A DNA stretch of 64,000 bases, taken from positions 4,551,501-4,615,500 of the forward strand of contig NZ_CP020370.1 of the NCBI RefSeq assembly GCF_002813775.1, read 5' to 3'. The stretch is from Candidatus Thiodictyon syntrophicum. Its GTDB lineage: Bacteria; Pseudomonadota; Gammaproteobacteria; Chromatiales; Chromatiaceae. Shown one piece after another: positions 1 through 25,765 of the stretch (within the stretch, counting starts at the first letter, position 1; every line of letters begins with the position of its first letter). The translations under genes were made by a program, and so were the position numbers. The notes beneath the pieces were generated by a model, which made no database searches, was not told the DNA's origin, and saw nothing but the letters and a program-made list of their open reading frames with translations.

Positions 1-1010
1 TCCTCCTGGCCTGTGCCGCCGAGGACGACGGCCTCGATCCCGGCCGTTGGCATCTGCACCATGGCGAGACCAAGGCCTGGCCCTTCCGGGCGATGATCGA
101 CCGGTCCCAACGGCTCGATGGGATGCGACTGGTCCGCGCGGCCCCGCACACCGCCGAGGCACGGCTCGACGACGGCCCTGACTCCACCCGCGCCGTGCGC
201 TCCGGCAACGTCAGCCAGATCAGCGCCGATGCGCGACTGCATCAACTCGTCTGCGAGATCGCCGACACCCTCGGCACCGTCGATCAGGACCGGCCGGCGG
301 CGACCGACGGCCAGGGCCTTGCCGGCTTTTGCCGGACCGTCAACAACGAGCTGTTCCGGCACAACAGCCGACACACCCATGTATTCGGCCTGTGGGAGCG
401 CTGCACCTGCGAGGCGGACGAGGTCAGGCAGGCCCTGCTGCGCGCGCTTCCGAACCTGCGCCTGTTCGACTGCGGCGACCCGGCGCGCGCCAGCACCGTG
501 CTGCGGGCCGACCGGGACACCCTGGAGACCTGGTACGCGTCCCACCTGCGCGCCATCGCCGAGCGCCGCAAGACCCTGGCAAGCACCCCGACGCCCGCGA
601 CCCCACCCGCCCAACCCACCGCCAAGCCGGAGCCGATACCAATGAACGACCCCCAGGGCGCCGCCCCGATCAACGTCAGCGTGAACGTCAACACCGGCAA
701 GGGCCCGGCCAATCAGGCCGCCGGCCGGTCTGCGGCCCATCAGCACCATCTGAGCACCGCGCAAGCCGAGCTGCTGCCGCTGCTCGAACGGCTGCTCGCC
801 GCAACCGGCACCGGCGAGCCGCACTACATCGAGCTGCGCAAGGCCTGCCGCGAGGCCCAAGGCGAGTTGGAGGAGAACGAGCCCCTGCCCGCGCCGGTCA
901 AGACCCGCTTGCGGCGGGCCATCGACGCCTTGCCCACCGCGGACAGTGCACTCGAAATCGCCGCCAAGGTCGCCGAGGCGATCGGCCGGATCCCGGGGTT
1001 GGGGTTATGA
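1..1010 (+). CDS. 3' part of a conflict-cassette accessory protein (start outside window)
   Basis: The reading frame is open from the first full codon (base 3), so the N-terminus lies outside the window; the first in-window ATG (base 93) is internal. I do not recognise an enzyme in the visible part. It has a globular region, a Pro/Ala linker, then a segment beginning INVSVNVNTGKG followed by a helical C-terminal domain of about 100 residues. Linker plus small helical module resembles the effector-associated modules common in NTPase-centred conflict systems, but that is inference. The stop overlaps the MoxR-type ATPase start (ATGA), which shows translational coupling. It is probably the third component of the MoxR/SAV_2336-like cassette downstream. 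Confidence 0.6.
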   Translation, partial: LLACAAEDDGLDPGRWHLHHGETKAWPFRAMIDRSQRLDGMRLVRAAPHTAEARLDDGPDSTRAVRSGNVSQISADARLHQLVCEIADTLGTVDQDRPAATDGQGLAGFCRTVNNELFRHNSRHTHVFGLWERCTCEADEVRQALLRALPNLRLFDCGDPARASTVLRADRDTLETWYASHLRAIAERRKTLASTPTPATPPAQPTAKPEPIPMNDPQGAAPINVSVNVNTGKGPANQAAGRSAAHQHHLSTAQAELLPLLERLLAATGTGEPHYIELRKACREAQGELEENEPLPAPVKTRLRRAIDALPTADSALEIAAKVAEAIGRIPGLGL

Positions 1011-1678
1011 GCGACGCACCGCCCCCCGCCAACGGCACCGCCCCGCAAGCCGACCGTTACGCCGCAATCGCCGCGCAGATCGGCACCGTGCTGCGGCTGC
1101 CCGCGACCGGTGCCTGGCCGGCGGTGCCGCACAAGCTCGATGCGGCCTCGGCCCACGCCATCGTCGCCGCGGCGGCGGCCGGCCGGCCGCTCCTGGTACG
1201 CGGCGAGCCCGGGGTCGGCAAGAGCCAACTCGCCCGCGCCGCCGCGCACCTGCTCGGGCGACCCTTCCTCGCCGCCGTGGTCCAGCCGGACAGCGAATAC
1301 CAGGAGCTGCTCTGGTCGCTGGACCACACCGCCCGGCTCGCCGACGCCCAACTCGGCAACCGCGACGACACCCGCCAGTTGCCGGCCGCCCTGCTGCGCC
1401 GCTGCGTGGTGCTGCGCATGGAACTGCCGGCCGAACCGCTGCGTTGGTTCCTGGACCGCGGCGAGACGCATTTCCCGGACCTGGACCCGGGCGTCCTCAG
1501 CGCCGCCGTCCTGCAGATCCTGGCCGACCGCGCCGCCTGCGCTGCCACCGCCCGCACCGGGCTCGCCGAGTACCTGGACCTGCTGCGCGCCCTTTCCGAG
1601 GTCGCCGCCGATGCGCAGGGCCAGCTTGAGTGGCTCGCGCGGCTCTCGGTCTATTTCAAGAAGAGTCATGCGGGCTGA
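1007..1678 (+). CDS. MoxR-type AAA+ ATPase, internally shortened
   Basis: The start is the ATG overlapping the previous stop; the same frame stays open further upstream but is out of frame with gene 1. Of 223 residues, the N-terminal half matches MoxR-type ATPases with Walker A GEPGVGKS at residues 66-73, followed by a family-like segment (EYQELLWSLDHTARL). The sensor/arginine-finger part (RQLPAALLRRCVVL) follows almost at once at about residue 123. The expected intervening segment with the Walker B acidic motif and sensor 1 is absent. Family members of this type are usually near 300 residues, so an in-frame deletion of roughly 70-90 codons is likely. ATP binding may persist but hydrolysis should be impaired. 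Such ATPases normally remodel or gate partner proteins encoded next to them. Confidence 0.75.
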   Translation: MSDAPPPANGTAPQADRYAAIAAQIGTVLRLPATGAWPAVPHKLDAASAHAIVAAAAAGRPLLVRGEPGVGKSQLARAAAHLLGRPFLAAVVQPDSEYQELLWSLDHTARLADAQLGNRDDTRQLPAALLRRCVVLRMELPAEPLRWFLDRGETHFPDLDPGVLSAAVLQILADRAACAATARTGLAEYLDLLRALSEVAADAQGQLEWLARLSVYFKKSHAG

Positions 1679-1683
1679 GACCG

Positions 1684-4293
1684 ATGACATCTGAGATCTC
1701 GCGTGCCGACCTGCTGCGGGTCCTGGCCCGCGCCCCGGGCCTGCCGGCCGCGGCGCTCGCGCGCCTGCTCGGGTGGGAGGGCGCGGAGCACGCCGAGCCC
1801 GACGCCGCGCAGTCGACGGCCACTGGGACGGCTACCGCGGCGCCGTCCGTCGCTGGCGCGGCCGTCGCACCCGTGCGCTACCTCGCCCGACCGGCCCCGG
1901 TCTACTGGCACCTGGTCGGCTGCGAGCCGCTCCCGGGCGAGCCCGCAACGGATCGGCCAGAGGACCCGGCGCGGGTCGCGACCGATTCCGCTCAAGAGCC
2001 CGGCCCGCCCCCGGACCCGCGCATCGCCCCGCTGCTCGCCCCCGGGCAATGGCAGAACCTCTGGGACCGGCTGCCGCCCTCGCCGCGGCGCGGTCCCGCC
2101 GTCGATCTGCCCGCCTGTCTGCGCCGCCTGACCCGCGCCGAGCCGCTGCACGACCTGCCGCGCCGGCCCCGGCGCGGCTTCAATCGCGCGGTCACCCTGA
2201 TCCTCGACCGCCCGGCCGCGCTGCGCCCGGTCTGGGACGATATGCGGCTTGCCAGGCGCAGCCTTGCGGCCCTGCTCGGCGACGCCTTGCAGACCTTTCT
2301 GCTCCCGGCTGGCCCGGACGGCCCCTGGCTCGAAGCGCCGGGCGCGGCCGATCCGCTCCAGCCCGAGGCCATCGACCCCGGCCCCGACGCCATCCCCGCC
2401 GCGGCCCCGGTGGTCCTGATCGGCGCCTTCGGTGCCCTGGACAGCGCCGAGATCGCCCCGGACTGGCAGCGCCTGCTCGCCCGCCTGGGCGCCGCCGGCC
2501 ATCCGTTGCTGCTGGTGCCCGTGTGCCCGCTGCGTCAGACCGCGCTGTCGGCCGCGCCGCTCGACCCCGCCATCGACAGCGCCGACAGCGACTCGGCCGA
2601 CCGGGTGCTCGGCACCCTGCTCGCCGCCCTGTCCCAGACCTGGCTCCCGACCCCGGCGCGCCTGCGCGGGCTGCGCCGGGCCATCCCCGGTGCCAGCCTG
2701 CACACGGAACTGCGGGTCTACAACGCGCCGGACATCGCCCGCGACGCCTTCCATCTGTGGCTCGCCCCGGACCAACTGCCCTTCCGGCTCGATCGCTTTG
2801 CGGAGCTCCCGCAGACCGACAGCGCGCCACTGCGGCGGGCCATCGACTCCTGGCGCCGCGGTCTCGATACCGGCGCCCAGGCCATCGAGCGTCTGCAAGC
2901 GAGCCTGAGCGACCCCGGTCCGCCGGGGCTTTACCCGGGCCTCGCGGAGCAGGCCGCCGCGGTCGCCGCGGGGCTCAACGGGCCGAGCACGATGGAGCGC
3001 GCCCAACTCGCCGCTTTGCTGCCGGTGCTGGCGCGGCTCGACGCCGCGCGTGCCCCGAGTTGGCGGCCGGTACTGCGCGATGCGGACCGCCTGGCCCGGG
3101 CGATCTGCCAGGGCGCCGTCGCCGACCAGGACTCCGCCGGACGCGATGCCCCGACCCATACCCTGGTCCAGCGCGGTGCCGATCTGCTGGTCCGCCCGGG
3201 CGACGGCGGTATCCTCCCCATCGGCCCCCGGGCCTACAGCCCCGAGACGGGCCTGCTGGTGGACGGCGCGCCGCTCGCCGGGCAACGCAGCCTCACGGTC
3301 ATCGACCACGGCCACCGCTGGCGACTCGTGACCCTCACCCGCCCACGCTGGGCCGAGCGAATTTGGAGCGACGGTCGGGACCTGTTCGCGGCCCATGCGG
3401 ACAACACCATTCTCCGCTGGCAGCCGGCGGCGCCGAAGCGGCCGGAGGGCACTTGGCGGCCGGAACTCAACCTCTGGCCTTGGGCTGCCGAGATCGGCGT
3501 CGACCGCTTCGGGCTCTGGGCGCTGCTTGATGTTCGCGGCGTACCGTACCTGCTTCGCTGGATCCCCGCGGGGCGTTTCCTGATGGGCTCGCCCGAGGAC
3601 GAGCCTGAGCGTAACGATGACGAGACCCAGCACGAGGTTGAACTGACCCGCGGCTTCTGGCTTGGCGAGACCGCAGTGTCCCAGGCACTGTGGCACGCGG
3701 CGATGGGCAACAATCCGAGCCGACGAAAGGGCGCCGACCTGCCGGTGGAGCAGGTCCCTTGGGGCGAGTGCCAGATCTTCGTCGCCAAGCTGGCCGGTAT
3801 GGCCCCGGGCCTCGGGCCCAGGCTCCCCACCGAGGCCGAGTGGGAATACGCCTGCCGGGCTGGCACGCGTACCGCATTCAGCTTCGGCGACATGCTGGAC
3901 ACCGGGCGGGCCAACTACAACGGCGACTATGCGTACAACAAGGGACCAAAGGGTGAATATCGCCAGCGCGCGCTGCCGGTATGGAGCGTCGCGCCCAACC
4001 CGTGGGGGCTGTATCAGATGCTCGGCAATGTTTATGAGTGGTGCGAGGACTGGTACGGTGCCTATCCGACCGGGCCGGTCTCGGACCCCGCTGGGCCGGC
4101 TGAGGGCAGCTACCGCGTCCTGCGCGGCGGCGCGTGGCTTAGCTTCGGGCGCTGCCTGCGCTCAGCGTTTCGCCGCCGCACGGGCTACAGCCACGCCGAT
4201 ATCGGCCTGCGTCTCGCCGGAGGTTTCGACCCCCAGGCAAGTCAGGCAGGCCAGGCCGAAGCCGGCACCATGACCGCCGACGGCCGGGCCTGA
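1684..4293 (+). CDS. SAV_2336-like protein fused to a formylglycine-generating-enzyme (FGE-sulfatase) domain
   Basis: It has 869 residues; ATG 1684 lies 5 nt after the MoxR-type stop. The N-terminal third is Ala/Pro-rich. Residues about 165-480 contain a vWA-like region (RAVTLILDRP, later VVLIGAFGALD) reminiscent of the SAV_2336 family found with MoxR in conflict systems. Residues about 490-590 form a further module, and about 620-862 are a complete FGE-sulfatase/C-type-lectin-like domain (PAGRFLMGSP, RLPTEAEWEYACRAGT, GNVYEWCEDW, VLRGGAW). The paired cysteines of true FGE enzymes are not evident at the C-terminal motif, so a binding role is more likely than catalysis. The C-terminal tail is the part that differs most from the paralogue at 4311. 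Likely role: the sensor of the cassette. Confidence 0.75.
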   Translation: MTSEISRADLLRVLARAPGLPAAALARLLGWEGAEHAEPDAAQSTATGTATAAPSVAGAAVAPVRYLARPAPVYWHLVGCEPLPGEPATDRPEDPARVATDSAQEPGPPPDPRIAPLLAPGQWQNLWDRLPPSPRRGPAVDLPACLRRLTRAEPLHDLPRRPRRGFNRAVTLILDRPAALRPVWDDMRLARRSLAALLGDALQTFLLPAGPDGPWLEAPGAADPLQPEAIDPGPDAIPAAAPVVLIGAFGALDSAEIAPDWQRLLARLGAAGHPLLLVPVCPLRQTALSAAPLDPAIDSADSDSADRVLGTLLAALSQTWLPTPARLRGLRRAIPGASLHTELRVYNAPDIARDAFHLWLAPDQLPFRLDRFAELPQTDSAPLRRAIDSWRRGLDTGAQAIERLQASLSDPGPPGLYPGLAEQAAAVAAGLNGPSTMERAQLAALLPVLARLDAARAPSWRPVLRDADRLARAICQGAVADQDSAGRDAPTHTLVQRGADLLVRPGDGGILPIGPRAYSPETGLLVDGAPLAGQRSLTVIDHGHRWRLVTLTRPRWAERIWSDGRDLFAAHADNTILRWQPAAPKRPEGTWRPELNLWPWAAEIGVDRFGLWALLDVRGVPYLLRWIPAGRFLMGSPEDEPERNDDETQHEVELTRGFWLGETAVSQALWHAAMGNNPSRRKGADLPVEQVPWGECQIFVAKLAGMAPGLGPRLPTEAEWEYACRAGTRTAFSFGDMLDTGRANYNGDYAYNKGPKGEYRQRALPVWSVAPNPWGLYQMLGNVYEWCEDWYGAYPTGPVSDPAGPAEGSYRVLRGGAWLSFGRCLRSAFRRRTGYSHADIGLRLAGGFDPQASQAGQAEAGTMTADGRA
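4126..4220 (+). other. Candidate DGR-type variable region A
   Basis: This is the C-terminal end of the FGE-fold domain, from the RGGAW codons to the IGLRLAG codons. Aligned with 5001-5101, flanking codons are nearly identical, while differing codons here are CTT, AGC, TTC, TGC and TTT where the other copy has AAT, TTC, AGC, CGC and TGT. The third base is kept and the first two vary, as expected if both derive from AAY codons by adenine mutagenesis. No reverse transcriptase or template repeat is in the window. Confidence 0.45.
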
Positions 4294-4310
4294 CTCTTCG
4301 CGAGGCGACT

Positions 4311-5108
4311 ATGCTACTTGACCCAAGCCCCCCGCTGTTTCCGGCCGACTGGGCGATCGCCTGGGGCGAGGACGCCTATGGATTGTGGCAGGCGTGCGCC
4401 ATCGCCGGCGTGCGACAGGTTATGCGCTGGTGTCCGCCGGGGCGGTTCCTCATGGGCTCGCCGACGGACGAGCCGGAGCGCTTCGAGGACGAAACCCAGC
4501 ACGAGGTGACCCTGACCCGCGGCTTCTGGCTCGCCGAGACCGCCTGCACCCAGGGCTTGTGGCAAGCCGTGACCAGCGACAACCCCTCCCATTGCCAGCG
4601 TAACTCCGAGCACCCGGTGGAGCGGGTCACCTGGTCAGCCTGCCAGGACTTCCTTGACCGGGCCAACCGGCTGCGCGACGACGGCCTGGTGCTTCGGCTG
4701 CCCACCGAGGCTGAGTGGGAATGCGCCTGTCGCGCCGGCACGCGCACGGCTTTCAGCTTCGGCGATGCGCTGGACACCGGGCGCGCAAACTACAACAGCG
4801 ATTTTCCGTACAACCAGGGTCCGAAGGGCGAGCAACGCCGACGCACGCTGCCGGTGCGGAGCTTCGCACCCAACCCCTGGGGCCTGTACCAGATGCACGG
4901 CAACGTCTGGGAGTGGTGCGCGGACTGGTTCGGCGACTATCCGGCCCGGCTGATGTCGGACCCCACTGGGCCGGCTGACGGCACGTCCCGGGTGCTGCGC
5001 GGCGGCGCGTGGAATTTCAGCGGGCGCCGCTTGCGCTCGGCGTGTCGCCGCCGCCACCCGCCGAGCCACCGCCGAGCGAGCATCGGCCTGCGTCTTGCCG
5101 GAGATTGA
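4311..5108 (+). CDS. Stand-alone FGE-sulfatase / C-type-lectin-fold protein
   Basis: It has 265 residues and lies 17 nt after the SAV_2336-like fusion, in the same operon. It is essentially a free copy of that protein's C-terminal domain, with the same blocks (GRFLMGSP, RLPTEAEWECACRAGT, ANYNSD, GNVWEWCADW, VLRGGAW, IGLRLAG). There is no signal peptide, so it is probably cytoplasmic. True FGEs convert a sulfatase cysteine to formylglycine, but no sulfatase gene is nearby and the catalytic cysteine pair is not obvious, so a ligand-binding or sensor role is favoured. Its C-terminal tail is the divergent stretch described at 5001-5101. Confidence 0.75.
   Translation: MLLDPSPPLFPADWAIAWGEDAYGLWQACAIAGVRQVMRWCPPGRFLMGSPTDEPERFEDETQHEVTLTRGFWLAETACTQGLWQAVTSDNPSHCQRNSEHPVERVTWSACQDFLDRANRLRDDGLVLRLPTEAEWECACRAGTRTAFSFGDALDTGRANYNSDFPYNQGPKGEQRRRTLPVRSFAPNPWGLYQMHGNVWEWCADWFGDYPARLMSDPTGPADGTSRVLRGGAWNFSGRRLRSACRRRHPPSHRRASIGLRLAGD
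5001..5101 (+). other. Candidate DGR-type variable region B
   Basis: The C-terminal tail of the stand-alone FGE-fold protein. AAT TTC AGC after GGAW still resembles an unmutated template (N, F, S from AAY-type codons). It is two codons longer than region A before the conserved IGLRLAG end. See 4126-4220 for the codon pattern. Confidence 0.45.
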
Positions 5109-5319
5109 CCCTCAGGCAGGCGAGGCAGGATGGCCGACCCGCCCCCGAGTCACCGCCGATGCACTCCCCCGAGGCGGTCGGAACGACGATCCAGGCCGCC
5201 GCCGATTCCACGATTGCCCCGCCGGTGTTATCGTCGAGCCACGGGCCGCCGGCCGCCATCGCGCGCGGGGCCGCCAGTCAACCGGCGCTCGGTCGCCGAC
5301 ATTTCGAGAGTGCGAGGAT

Positions 5320-5649
5320 ATGCTCGACCAAGACACCATAAGTTCGGCAATCGACCGTCTCGTCGCCGCAGCCTCCTCGCCGCTGCGGGTGATCCTGTTC
5401 GGCTCTTACGGACGCGGTACGGCGGATCCGGGATCGGACCTTGATTTGATGGTGATCGAGCGGGAGGTGCCGGACCGGGGGGCGGAATACATGCGTCTGA
5501 TGGATGCGCTGGGGTCGCTGGAACCGGGCGTTGGGGTCGATCTGCTGATCTATCCGCTGAGCGAGTTCGAGCGCCGCAGCCAAGTGCCGGGGACCCTGCT
5601 CTTTCGAGCGCGACAAGAGGGGCGGGTGCTGCATGACTCCCTGCATTGA
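5320..5649 (+). CDS. MNT-type nucleotidyltransferase (antitoxin-like)
   Basis: It has 109 residues. I chose the internal ATG at 5320 because the frame upstream is not family-like. The minimal nucleotidyltransferase motif is clear: GSYGRGTADPGSDLDLMV (GSxxxG...SDxD), with a further acidic residue in VDLLIYP. Such MNT proteins pair with HEPN toxins; known pairs act by AMPylating the HEPN protein. The next gene, overlapping by 17 nt in another frame, is the start of a HEPN protein, but it is broken, so this antitoxin is probably orphaned. The 5109-5319 gap upstream holds nothing recognisable. Confidence 0.8.
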   Translation: MLDQDTISSAIDRLVAAASSPLRVILFGSYGRGTADPGSDLDLMVIEREVPDRGAEYMRLMDALGSLEPGVGVDLLIYPLSEFERRSQVPGTLLFRARQEGRVLHDSLH

Positions 5650-5806
5650 AGAGGCCGAACGGCTGTTGCGGCTGGCCGCGCGGGACTACGGGACCTTTTC
5701 GATCCTTGCTCATCATCCGGACGCGGATTCCGCCGCGGCCGGCTTTCATGCGCAGCAATGCCTGGAGAAGGCTCTCCGCAACCCGGCTGAAGAGACTCAG
5801 GCTTAG
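5633..5806 (+). pseudogene. Truncated HEPN-domain partner of the MNT gene
   Basis: ATG 5633 overlaps the MNT gene end. The 57 codons encode a typical HEPN N-terminal half (RLLRLAARDYGTF, then GFHAQQCLEKAL) that loses family similarity near 5783 and stops at TAG 5804. The second half with the RNase motif is missing. The TAG lies in the duplicated IS target (TTAG), so the stop would exist even without the IS. Truncation therefore came before, probably by arrival of the GTTGTC repeat whose GTTAAAC flank follows the IS. Confidence 0.7.
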
Positions 5807-7339
5807 TTCTACTTTGTAAAATTGCAATAGGCCATTGAATTTGATATAATTTTAGCAGCGGTAAAAATATATTCGGAGCGTGTAAGAGAAGCCTGGTGAA
5901 TAAAACAAACTATGGTCAACCGGACTATGCTTTGAAAAGGATAGTAAAGCATCTATCAAATCATCTTGAAGGCTATCATGAATGCTTTCTGACCAAAACT
6001 TCCGATGGTTATGAGTTATGTCGAGGTTACATCAACGGCCTTCTGAAAACAGAGTCTGGTAAGCGTAACATCGAACGCCTTAACGAAGAGATCGAGATGC
6101 CGGATAACAGCTATCAGCAGCTTCAACACTTTATCACGGATTCCCCCTGGTCTTCAGAGAGAGTCATGCGCTTAGTTGCCCAAAATACATCTGATCTGTA
6201 TGCCGACCAACACGACTATCGCTCTCGTGACGTCGGTTATATTATTGACGAATCCGCACATCTAAAGAAAGGCAACTATTCGGCGGGTGTTTCCAGACAA
6301 TATGCTGGGGTGGTCGGAAAAGTGGATAACTGCCAGGTTGGCGTCTACGCGAGCTTAGTTTGGCAGTGTCACAGCACGTTGGTTAACTGTCGCCTCTTTC
6401 TACCAGAGTCATGGACCAGCAATCCAGAGCGTTGTGAAAGAGCGGGCATACCTCCTGACGCGCGTGCTTTCAAGACCAAGCTGGAACTGGCGCTCGATAT
6501 GGTGACAGCAGATATGGCGGCAGGCGTGGAATTTGGCTGGGTCGGTGGAGACGGCGTCTACGGACATGGATGGGAATTAAGTAATGCTATAGATAACATG
6601 GGCTTAACGTTTGTTTTCGACGTTCATTGCAATCAGCTAATTTATACCGTTGAACCAACGATTTCAGTTCCTGAGAAGAAGCCTGGGCCGGGTCGCCAAC
6701 CGACGAAGCCACAAACAGATATAGATCCCATAACGGTGAAGAACTATGGCACTTCTCTAAGTTCTCATGCATGGCGAAACGTTACAGTTCGCGATGCGGT
6801 TAAGGGGCCGTTGACGCTCTCAATTCATGCGGAAAGAGTGTGGGTCTGGGATGGCAAAGGTGATCGTGCAATAGAGCGAGTCTTGGTAATAAGCCGAAAT
6901 CTGGCCGACAATAAGATCAAATACTCGCTAAGCAACGTTGACTACATGGAGACACCGATTGAAAGGCTAGCATACATGCAAGCCCAACGATATTGGGTGG
7001 AGCGTGCCTTTCAGGAGGCTAAATCCGAAATCGGGATGTCTGATTATCAAGTTAGGAAATGGAATGCCTGGCACCATCATATGGCACTTGTCATGCTCTC
7101 ACTCTCCTTTATCGTAAAAGAGCGTATTACGCACAAACTTGAATACCCTTTATTAAGCTGCCGGGACGTTCGGCTGATGATTATCGCGTTACTAACGCAG
7201 GATGAGGCTATGGTTGAAAAGCGTATTGCACAAATGGCGGTCAGGCATGATCAACGGCGTAGCGATATCGAGCGGCGTTACAAGATAGCCTAGCCAGGCT
7301 AGTTGAAAAGCGGCCAGAATTCAAGTTAACAAAGTAGAA
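5807..7339 (+). mobile_element. IS701-family-like insertion sequence (1533 bp)
   Basis: The ends are inverted repeats: the left begins TTCTACTTTGT at 5807 and the right ends ACAAAGTAGAA at 7339 (11 bp perfect, imperfect further in). TTAG flanks both sides (5803-5806 and 7340-7343), a 4-bp target duplication fitting the YTAR preference of IS701 elements. It encodes one transposase and is visibly AT-richer than its surroundings, which indicates recent import. Confidence 0.88.
5896..7293 (+). CDS. IS701-type DDE transposase
   Basis: It has 465 residues from a GTG start after AAGAGAAGCC. Family blocks are present: DESAHLKKG with the first catalytic Asp (YIIDESAHLKKG), then VGKVDNCQVGV, a GDGVYGHGWEL segment around the second Asp, and YWVERAFQEAKSEIGM with the Glu near the C-terminus. 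Length fits a complete IS701 transposase and no frameshift is visible, so the element may be active. Codon use is much less GC3-biased than in all neighbouring genes. Confidence 0.88.
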   Translation: MNKTNYGQPDYALKRIVKHLSNHLEGYHECFLTKTSDGYELCRGYINGLLKTESGKRNIERLNEEIEMPDNSYQQLQHFITDSPWSSERVMRLVAQNTSDLYADQHDYRSRDVGYIIDESAHLKKGNYSAGVSRQYAGVVGKVDNCQVGVYASLVWQCHSTLVNCRLFLPESWTSNPERCERAGIPPDARAFKTKLELALDMVTADMAAGVEFGWVGGDGVYGHGWELSNAIDNMGLTFVFDVHCNQLIYTVEPTISVPEKKPGPGRQPTKPQTDIDPITVKNYGTSLSSHAWRNVTVRDAVKGPLTLSIHAERVWVWDGKGDRAIERVLVISRNLADNKIKYSLSNVDYMETPIERLAYMQAQRYWVERAFQEAKSEIGMSDYQVRKWNAWHHHMALVMLSLSFIVKERITHKLEYPLLSCRDVRLMIIALLTQDEAMVEKRIAQMAVRHDQRRSDIERRYKIA

Positions 7340-11978: not shown

Positions 11979-12169
11979 AGCGACAGACCTCGTAGAGTAG
12001 GCAACACGAGGCGTAAGTCAGGGGTGGCCGATGTGCCTGCCGGCGCGCCCGACAACGGGCCCGCCGGCGACGAAAGCCGCGGCTAATAGGGCGGCCGGCA
12101 CCACGTCGGCGGTGTGCGGAGGGCCCCATAGGCTCAAGCCCCACCCCGGGGCTCACACCAGTTCACGCC

Positions 12170-12362
12170 TTGGGCCGGTCTTCTGGCTCGCCCTCATCCG
12201 GGGTGACGCCGCCTTCCCGCGCGTGCCGCGCAGTGGCATGTGGCGATCCCGTCAGGCTTACAGCAGCGGGGGCTGCGCCGGAGTGTGCGGTCGCGCAATC
12301 GCGCCCGCGGTCACCGGACTTCCCGTTTCACCCCGCGGCACGGTCGCACCGCGGGACACCCA
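12170..12362 (-). promoter_or_regulatory. Cobalamin riboswitch
   Basis: Read on the minus strand it shows, in order, GTGAAACGGGAAGTCCGGTG, the core CAGCCCCCGCTGCTGTAAGC, the B12-box-like TGCCACTGCGCGG, GGGAAGGCGGCGTC and the 3' GAGCCAGAAGACCGGCC. This is the canonical order of cobalamin aptamer elements. It precedes the CbiM-like gene at 11978. The 191 bases between it and that gene hold nothing else recognisable. Confidence 0.92.
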
Positions 12363-12471
12363 AAGCAGGCTAAAAAGGATACGCCAGGCAAGGCAGGGGC
12401 GACAAGCGAAACGAGGAATCCGTTCCAGGCCGCCGTCGCTAGCCGTCCCCGCTGGCGGCGGCGTGCGATCT

Positions 12472-25227: not shown

Positions 25228-25385
25228 TACAACGATCTCCCCACGACGAGGGGCGGATCATTCTGGGGAGAGACCACGGGACGGGCAGGTCGGCCGAGGG
25301 CCGGCCCCGGCAGTTCCAGGCAAGCGGAGCACTTGCGTCTCGCCACCGGAACACCCCGCCCGGATTGACTGATCGACACGCGACA

Positions 25386-25560
25386 CCGGCAGGTCTCCTG
25401 GCTTGCAGGTCGGCATCGACACCCACCTTCCCGGCCCCGGCAGGCGGCCAGTGGTGATCTCGGGTGCGACTCGCTGCGTACAGTTGCGGGGGCAGCCATG
25501 GCTTTGAACCATGTTCCCTTTTCATCCCCCGGGGCCTGGCCGCGGGGGAACCGGTGTCGT
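25386..25560 (-). promoter_or_regulatory. Cobalamin riboswitch
   Basis: On the minus strand: CCGGTTCCCCCGCGG region, GGGGATGAAAAGGGAACATGG, the core GGCTGCCCCCGCAACTGTA, the B12-box-like ATCACCACTGGCC, GGGAAGGTGGGTG and the 3' GCAAGCCAGGAGACCTGCCG. All conserved aptamer blocks are in order. It controls cbiMN downstream. The 25561-25765 stretch further upstream shows no gene. Confidence 0.95.
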
Positions 25561-25765
25561 TCGCCGGCCACTGTAGGACCTTTTCGCCGGGTGGTCAAAT
25601 CGGCTTCCGGTCTTACCGATGGCGTTAAATTGAGCCCGATAGGCTCCTGCGCGCAAGCGGGGGAACGCGGGCGGTCGAGAGTCCGCTGTCGGGCCTGGGC
25701 GTCGGCGGCAGGTTCAGATCCTGGAGCGTCGTGCGGCGCTACGCCGCAGCGCCACGTGGCAATGC

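Follow-up and report, generated by a model that had tools for sequence, protein, structure and literature searches.

Two orphan variable repeats next to a shortened MoxR gene in Candidatus Thiodictyon syntrophicum suggest a degenerate diversity-generating retroelement cassette

How do two neighboring genes come to carry the marks of a diversity-generating retroelement (DGR) at a locus that has no reverse transcriptase (RT), accessory gene, or template repeat (TR)? This question is raised by a stretch of 64,000 nucleotides from Candidatus Thiodictyon syntrophicum (G000:C1:4551501-4615500, hereafter called the window), which comes from a three-contig genome (6,837,296, 484,824, and 416,864 bases; 7,738,984 bases in all). 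Near the start of the window, a gene for a MoxR-type ATPase is followed by two genes for proteins with a formylglycine-generating enzyme (FGE) fold, and a preliminary description of the DNA proposed that both proteins are, or were, DGR targets. The past tense of this proposal is borne out by an orthologous DGR in a related bacterium, whose TR matches the tails of both genes at bases other than adenine (non-A bases). The present tense is not, because the locus lacks the machinery and searches of the complete genome turned up no fitting TR among the candidates scored. We therefore consider it highly probable that the locus is a degenerate DGR cassette that lost its machinery, kept its two targets, and had its MoxR gene shortened.

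The genes at the locus are arranged in the order MoxR, long target, and short lectin-only target, and all three reading frames are open. The MoxR-type AAA ATPase (1007..1678, + strand, 223 amino acids) keeps its Walker A motif and is missing the Walker B motif and sensor I. The long target (1684..4293, + strand, within an open frame at 1630-4293 that has an ATG at 1684) begins with an extension of approximately 600 residues, in which no Pfam family scored above the cut-off, and ends with an FGE/C-type-lectin domain. The short target (4311..5108, + strand, 265 amino acids) consists of the same type of domain. In agreement with the preliminary description, a Pfam scan finds an FGE-sulfatase domain in each protein (E 2.5e-41 for the long target and 4.3e-45 for the short target). 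Solved relatives of the short target include formylglycine-generating enzymes and the variable protein 1 of Treponema denticola (2y3c), which is a DGR target, and family membership suggests a C-type-lectin fold for both proteins. Each gene ends in an orphan variable repeat (VR), located at 4113..4222 (+ strand) in the long target and at 4988..5103 (+ strand) in the short target.

We searched 194 genomes of the family, a subset of a larger group, with the long target, scoring in most of them no more than four candidates. The sole full-length match (71% identity) was in genome G087, which belongs to another genus, and matches of 42% identity came from G152 and G136. The G087 locus carries, in order, MoxR, the long target, an HRDC accessory protein, an RT (RVT_1), the TR, and the short target. 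All mismatches between its VRs and its TR occur at template A positions (15 of 15 over 95 bases and 16 of 16 over 116 bases), and nothing else in the G087 genome besides the TR and its two VRs matches at E values up to 1e-4. The flanks of the two loci are collinear, with window positions 1362-4286 corresponding to G087 529-3453 and window positions 4300-5120 corresponding to G087 5464-6251. Between these flanks, the window has 13 bp (4287..4299), whereas G087 has approximately 2,010 bp that encompass the accessory gene, the RT, and the TR. A search with four RT queries over the initial 20 kb of the window revealed no RT.

When the G087 TR is used as the standard, both window genes end in VRs whose differences are concentrated at A positions. 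The short-gene tail, which aligns without gaps to the 116-bp TR, is changed at 16 of 24 A positions and at 9 of 92 non-A positions (p = 4e-8), such that 83 of the 92 non-A bases match. The long-gene tail, which is six bases shorter than the TR and was aligned with a six-base gap placed for the best match, is changed at 16 of 23 A positions and at 8 of 87 non-A positions (p = 1e-8), leaving 79 matching non-A bases. Among A positions at codon bases 1 and 2, the changed fractions are 16/23 and 16/21 in the tails versus 14/88 and 79/276 in the bodies of the same genes. Furthermore, with the gap in the long-gene tail again placed for the best match, 25 of 29 changed codons retain their third base, compared to 155 of 266 in the gene bodies (p = 0.002). 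The two window tails also have GGC GCG in common at a place that reads GGT TCG in the G087 template, which would make sense if the template lost from this lineage was not identical to that of G087 at this point.

The preliminary description had drawn its case from the two window tails, which it called nearly identical, with third bases conserved and the first two bases of scattered codons varied. The codon pairs that it named (CTT/AAT, AGC/TTC, TTC/AGC, TGC/CGC, and TTT/TGT) are indeed present. However, its wording on similarity was too strong, as the tail of the long gene falls two codons short of the other and the tails diverge considerably in their second halves. The codon pattern, which emerges in comparison with the G087 template, is not established by the window alone, where 9 of 11 changed codons in the tails keep base 3, a share not significantly different from the 44 of 78 seen for the body (p = 0.098).

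Several observations weigh against the interpretation that the tails are former DGR products. The third base differs between the window tails in 9 of 35 aligned codons (7 of 35 if the gap is set by the G087 template), which is not clearly below the 79 of 211 codons observed for the rest of the FGE domain (p = 0.12). When the long VR of G087 itself is compared without gaps over the full 116 bases, 13 non-A mismatches appear, which we attribute to a one-codon insertion near its end. The non-A changes in the window tails and their two-codon length change indicate that ordinary mutation has also acted. In addition, our tests take sites as independent, and the polarity of the loss is set by a single close relative with a draft genome. 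Finally, A bias by itself proves little because A sites vary across the FGE family. As a control, we collected 50 R-GG-x-W motif hits, some of which are chance motifs, from the fetched loci of this genome. Among the 45 of these 50 hits that were listed, the A-site differences from the G087 TR range from 12 to 23 of 24, except in two template copies with 4 and 5. Since FGE tails of this genome show the bias generally, we rejected it as sole proof. The weight of the argument is therefore placed on the kept third bases and on non-A identity, for which the short-gene tail has the fewest mismatches to the G087 TR of all 50 hits (9 versus 20 for the next).

Is this arrangement a peculiarity of one genome? 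A census of 37 loci chosen by similarity to the long target, 12 of which were dropped for having fewer than two complete FGE domains, left 25 twin-target loci for comparison. Where a locus had three FGE domains, the comparison used the last two, and RTs were sought in the fetched stretches, which mostly come from draft genomes. Seven loci have both the accessory gene and an RT, one (L185) has only an RT, five have remnants, and 12, including the window, have neither (L109 is counted here despite a 38-residue accessory fragment). A full-length RT is thus missing from the stretch read in 17 of the 25 loci. In G152 (L113), shortened remnants of the accessory gene and the RT are still present. The same gene order with a full RT is found at L043, L112 (the G087 locus), L115, and L122. 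A tree of the 25 loci, built from domain bodies without VRs, places RT-less and intact loci as sisters in four pairs: the window and L112 (support 0.996), L109 and L179 (0.917), L118 and L122 (0.994), and L189 and L183 (1.000). Parsimony counts 13 RT losses, which is an upper-type figure because regain was forbidden.

The third bases of paired VRs appear to record these losses. Between the last two VRs, the seven intact loci show third-base differences of 0 to 0.03, and the remaining 18 loci span 0 to 0.27 (Mann-Whitney p = 3.7e-4), whereas those of the domain bodies are similar (0.24-0.57 in intact loci and 0.28-0.60 in the others). The value for the window is 0.26, among the four most decayed loci. 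However, of the 17 loci that lack a full RT, 13 are still at 0.03 to 0.14, which speaks against a simple clock. These low values could reflect recent loss, a template elsewhere in the genome, or gene conversion. Own-genome template searches beyond the window were made with queries from two RT-less loci. In G128, only the two VRs of the locus itself and weak matches (E 0.002 and above) were found among the candidates scored (40 of 272 and 40 of 133). In G035, one further VR-like copy was found at C215:24920-25044, which is 86% identical to the pair of the RT-less locus L116, along with a weak one at 71%.

Given these comparisons, the ancestral locus would have been arranged as MoxR, long target, accessory (HRDC) protein, RT, TR, and short target, with retrohoming active in the window lineage. 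A deletion would then have removed the accessory gene, the RT, and the TR, which we judge were lost rather than never present. A second deletion would have taken the Walker B part of MoxR. Both targets would have remained open and near-normal in their rates of change, and their variable tips, apparently frozen, would now change by ordinary mutation only.

The MoxR gene bears on whether anything at this locus still functions. Relative to G087, 303 bp (101 codons) are missing in frame at a junction (1362..1366, + strand) where the flanking blocks, aligned at offsets 1136 and 833, overlap by 5 bp. The missing codons include Walker B and the sensor I region, so that Walker A is the only one left of the three motifs (Walker A, Walker B, and sensor I) expected in a functional MoxR. 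A MoxR match was obtained in 21 of the 24 other census loci, and all 21 matches span the part missing in the window (that of L117 in two pieces, six residues apart). No MoxR match was found in the stretches read for L121, L179, and L183. Because of the missing motifs, normal ATP-driven signaling looks impaired. Residue changes number 33 window-only versus 30 G087-only in the N-terminal part of the long target and 7 versus 5 in the remaining MoxR, and therefore no general acceleration is evident. In the FGE part of the long target, 17 changes are window-only and 7 are G087-only.

It is possible, although we doubt it, that the whole cassette is a decaying and functionless pseudogene cluster, which would be compatible with the origin proposed above. 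The missing RT, TR, and Walker B motif and the excess of window-only changes in the FGE part are in line with this possibility, whereas the three open frames and the absence of a general acceleration argue against it. On the latter evidence, with near-equal rates outside the lectin part, the pair may still work as a fixed sensor, a function that the MoxR deletion and the lectin-part changes make weaker as a proposal.

A second alternative is that the two proteins were never DGR targets, that their FGE surfaces vary under ordinary diversifying selection, and that a DGR later captured the G087 genes. FGE tails across this genome do vary at the same positions, and the third bases of the window tails are no longer clearly conserved with respect to each other. 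Nevertheless, we consider this scenario improbable given the third bases kept in comparison with the G087 template, the recurrence of the same gene order with a full RT at four loci, and the four sister pairs of intact and RT-less loci.

The genome-wide search for a DGR that was suggested in the preliminary description did find RTs and templates, none of which fits the tails. There are 11 RVT_1 matches in the genome, all outside the window and the nearest approximately 100 kb away, and the ten stretches that we read cover all of them. Four of these stretches contain a TR and VRs in which every mismatch is at a template A position: L041 (12/12), L042 (13/13 and 21/21), L043 (13/13 and 14/14), and L044 (9/9). 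Therefore, this organism has DGR machinery. The VRs of these four loci match their own templates at every non-A base. In contrast, when placed at the best ungapped position on the short-gene tail, the templates disagree with it at 26 of 94 (L041), 32 of 59 (L042), 30 of 99 (L043), and 20 of 43 (L044) non-A bases. Within the front part of the long-gene tail, the non-A misses number 21 of 64 (L041), 26 of 44 (L042), and 24 of 68 (L043), the L044 template being too short for this comparison. These are thus not the templates of the window tails. Although diversification in trans is described for DGR 4/5 of Thiohalocapsa PB-PSB1 by Dore et al. (2024, PMC10907252), and four loci with RT, TR, and VR exist here, these non-A misses led us to reject ongoing diversification of the window tails in trans by those loci as very unlikely.

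Wider searches gave the same outcome. No fitting template was found in whole-genome searches with the tail (40 of 135 first-look candidates scored) or with the G087 TR at E values up to 10 (40 of 55 scored), by a degenerate genome-wide pattern with three mismatches, or in a scan of the fetched loci. As for relatives suited to the strain comparison that the preliminary description suggested, the genomes available represent each species once, and a contig scan that may omit records close to the genome of the window gave no match above 53% identity for its best segment. Two of the DGR loci have features of their own. L042 (C1:2956000-2975990) has one template, two VR genes, two further FGE genes, and a gene whose product by eye resembles a kinase, and L044 (C1:5502000-5517000) has a 64-bp template and VR unlike the FGE tail type.

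The window pair is not the only such case in this genome, which by our tally has nine orphan or diverged VRs (window pair included) versus six with an exact template. Six dispersed VRs match the TR of an intact DGR in the congener G107: two in L109 (G000:C1:4113826-4117368) and one each in L017 (C1:1395483), L018 (C1:1187758), L021 (C1:1503871), and L028 (C1:4085934). Over 103 non-A positions, they have 6 and 6 (L109), 7 (L017), 6 (L018), 13 (L021), and 7 (L028) mismatches to that TR, and 14 to 18 of its 26 A positions are changed. A remote VR in G107 itself (L231) also has 7 non-A mismatches. A whole-genome search with the G107 TR, in which 40 of 62 candidates were scored, returned these six VR places and no template of the G107 type, the sole template among the matches being that of L043 at 74%. 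The FGE tail of L013 (C1:2870731-2871438) differs from the L043 TR of the same genome at 9 of 99 non-A positions and at 15 of 27 A positions, and L013 is probably a former remote target of this template.

At two RT-less loci from two species, a transposase-like gene occupies the place where an RT is expected (L109:9199-9792, - strand, and L125:7647-8228, + strand, in G127). We take this gene to resemble the REP-associated tyrosine transposases. The short repeat GTAGGGTCCGC or its complement is present in 12 copies in the L109 stretch and in 10 copies in the L125 stretch.

The architecture of the window has close counterparts among the clade 5A DGR loci of multicellular bacteria, such as DGR 8 of Thiohalocapsa PB-PSB1, whose gene order is described by Dore et al. 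(2024, PMC10907252). As in the window, the gene for a MoxR-like ATPase there immediately precedes a target that has a long N-terminal extension free of domains and a lectin domain at its C-terminus, and a second, short lectin-only target is present. Unlike those loci, the window lacks the RT, the accessory gene, and the TR, and its MoxR is without Walker B. Those authors suggest a role as antigen sensors for the targets and also describe degenerate loci (PMC10907252). According to the same text, the degenerate PB-PSB1 loci (incomplete or candidate remote targets: DGR 1, 3, 4, 5, and 7) also keep their targets, and their machinery is missing or deleted or has given way to repeat arrays. Several of them are explained by trans activity or by intact population variants, whereas for the window no template was found in the genome. 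The MoxR-vWA ternary conflict systems, as outlined by Kaur et al. (2020, PMC7159879), likewise combine a MoxR ATPase with DGR-linked FGE/lectin-fold domains. However, none of the window genes at 93-5649 matched vWA in Pfam scans. The suggestion in the preliminary description that the targets are variable sensors of a MoxR conflict cassette would fit the published architecture (PMC10907252).

Degenerate DGR loci in such cassettes are already known (Dore et al. 2024, PMC10907252), and what is new here is the complete orphaning, its recurrence, and the decay signal. Thiodictyon is not mentioned in Dore et al. (2024, PMC10907252), the accessible text of the Cad16 genome paper (PMC5944118) does not mention retroelement, reverse transcriptase, formylglycine, or MoxR, and among the papers listed in literature searches, one of which listed 20 of 64, no title or abstract describes this locus or orphan VRs in Thiodictyon.

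The window locus illustrates how a DGR may end, with machinery dropping out and targets staying behind. Non-A third bases of two VRs, which would stay equal while a template rewrites them and drift afterward, could provide a simple measure of decay and thereby of how long ago mutagenesis ceased. More speculatively, and in our view rather unlikely, twin sensors might be hypermutated and then fixed, with repeated loss of RT and TR yielding a heritable, germline-like pair kept by selection. In that case, a genome would hold a few live DGRs together with an expanding collection of frozen variants, here nine orphan or diverged VRs versus six with an exact template. Should frozen pairs be kept in this way, bacterial conflict systems could gain new inherited sensors through a phase of hypermutation that ends in fixation.

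Other features flank the cassette. Upstream of MoxR, a gene for a protein of 305 amino acids (93..1010, + strand) matched no family in NCBIfam, Pfam, or PADLOC, and weak relatives of it lie upstream of MoxR in G152 and G136 (tblastn E 9e-13 to L113 and 1e-10 to L114). Downstream, a small nucleotidyltransferase gene (PF01909) at 5326-5649 lies between the short target and an IS701-family transposase at 5896-7293, which is 0.8 kb downstream of the short target. Two cobalamin riboswitches are also present in the window, at 12156-12378 and at 25371-25570 (- strand).

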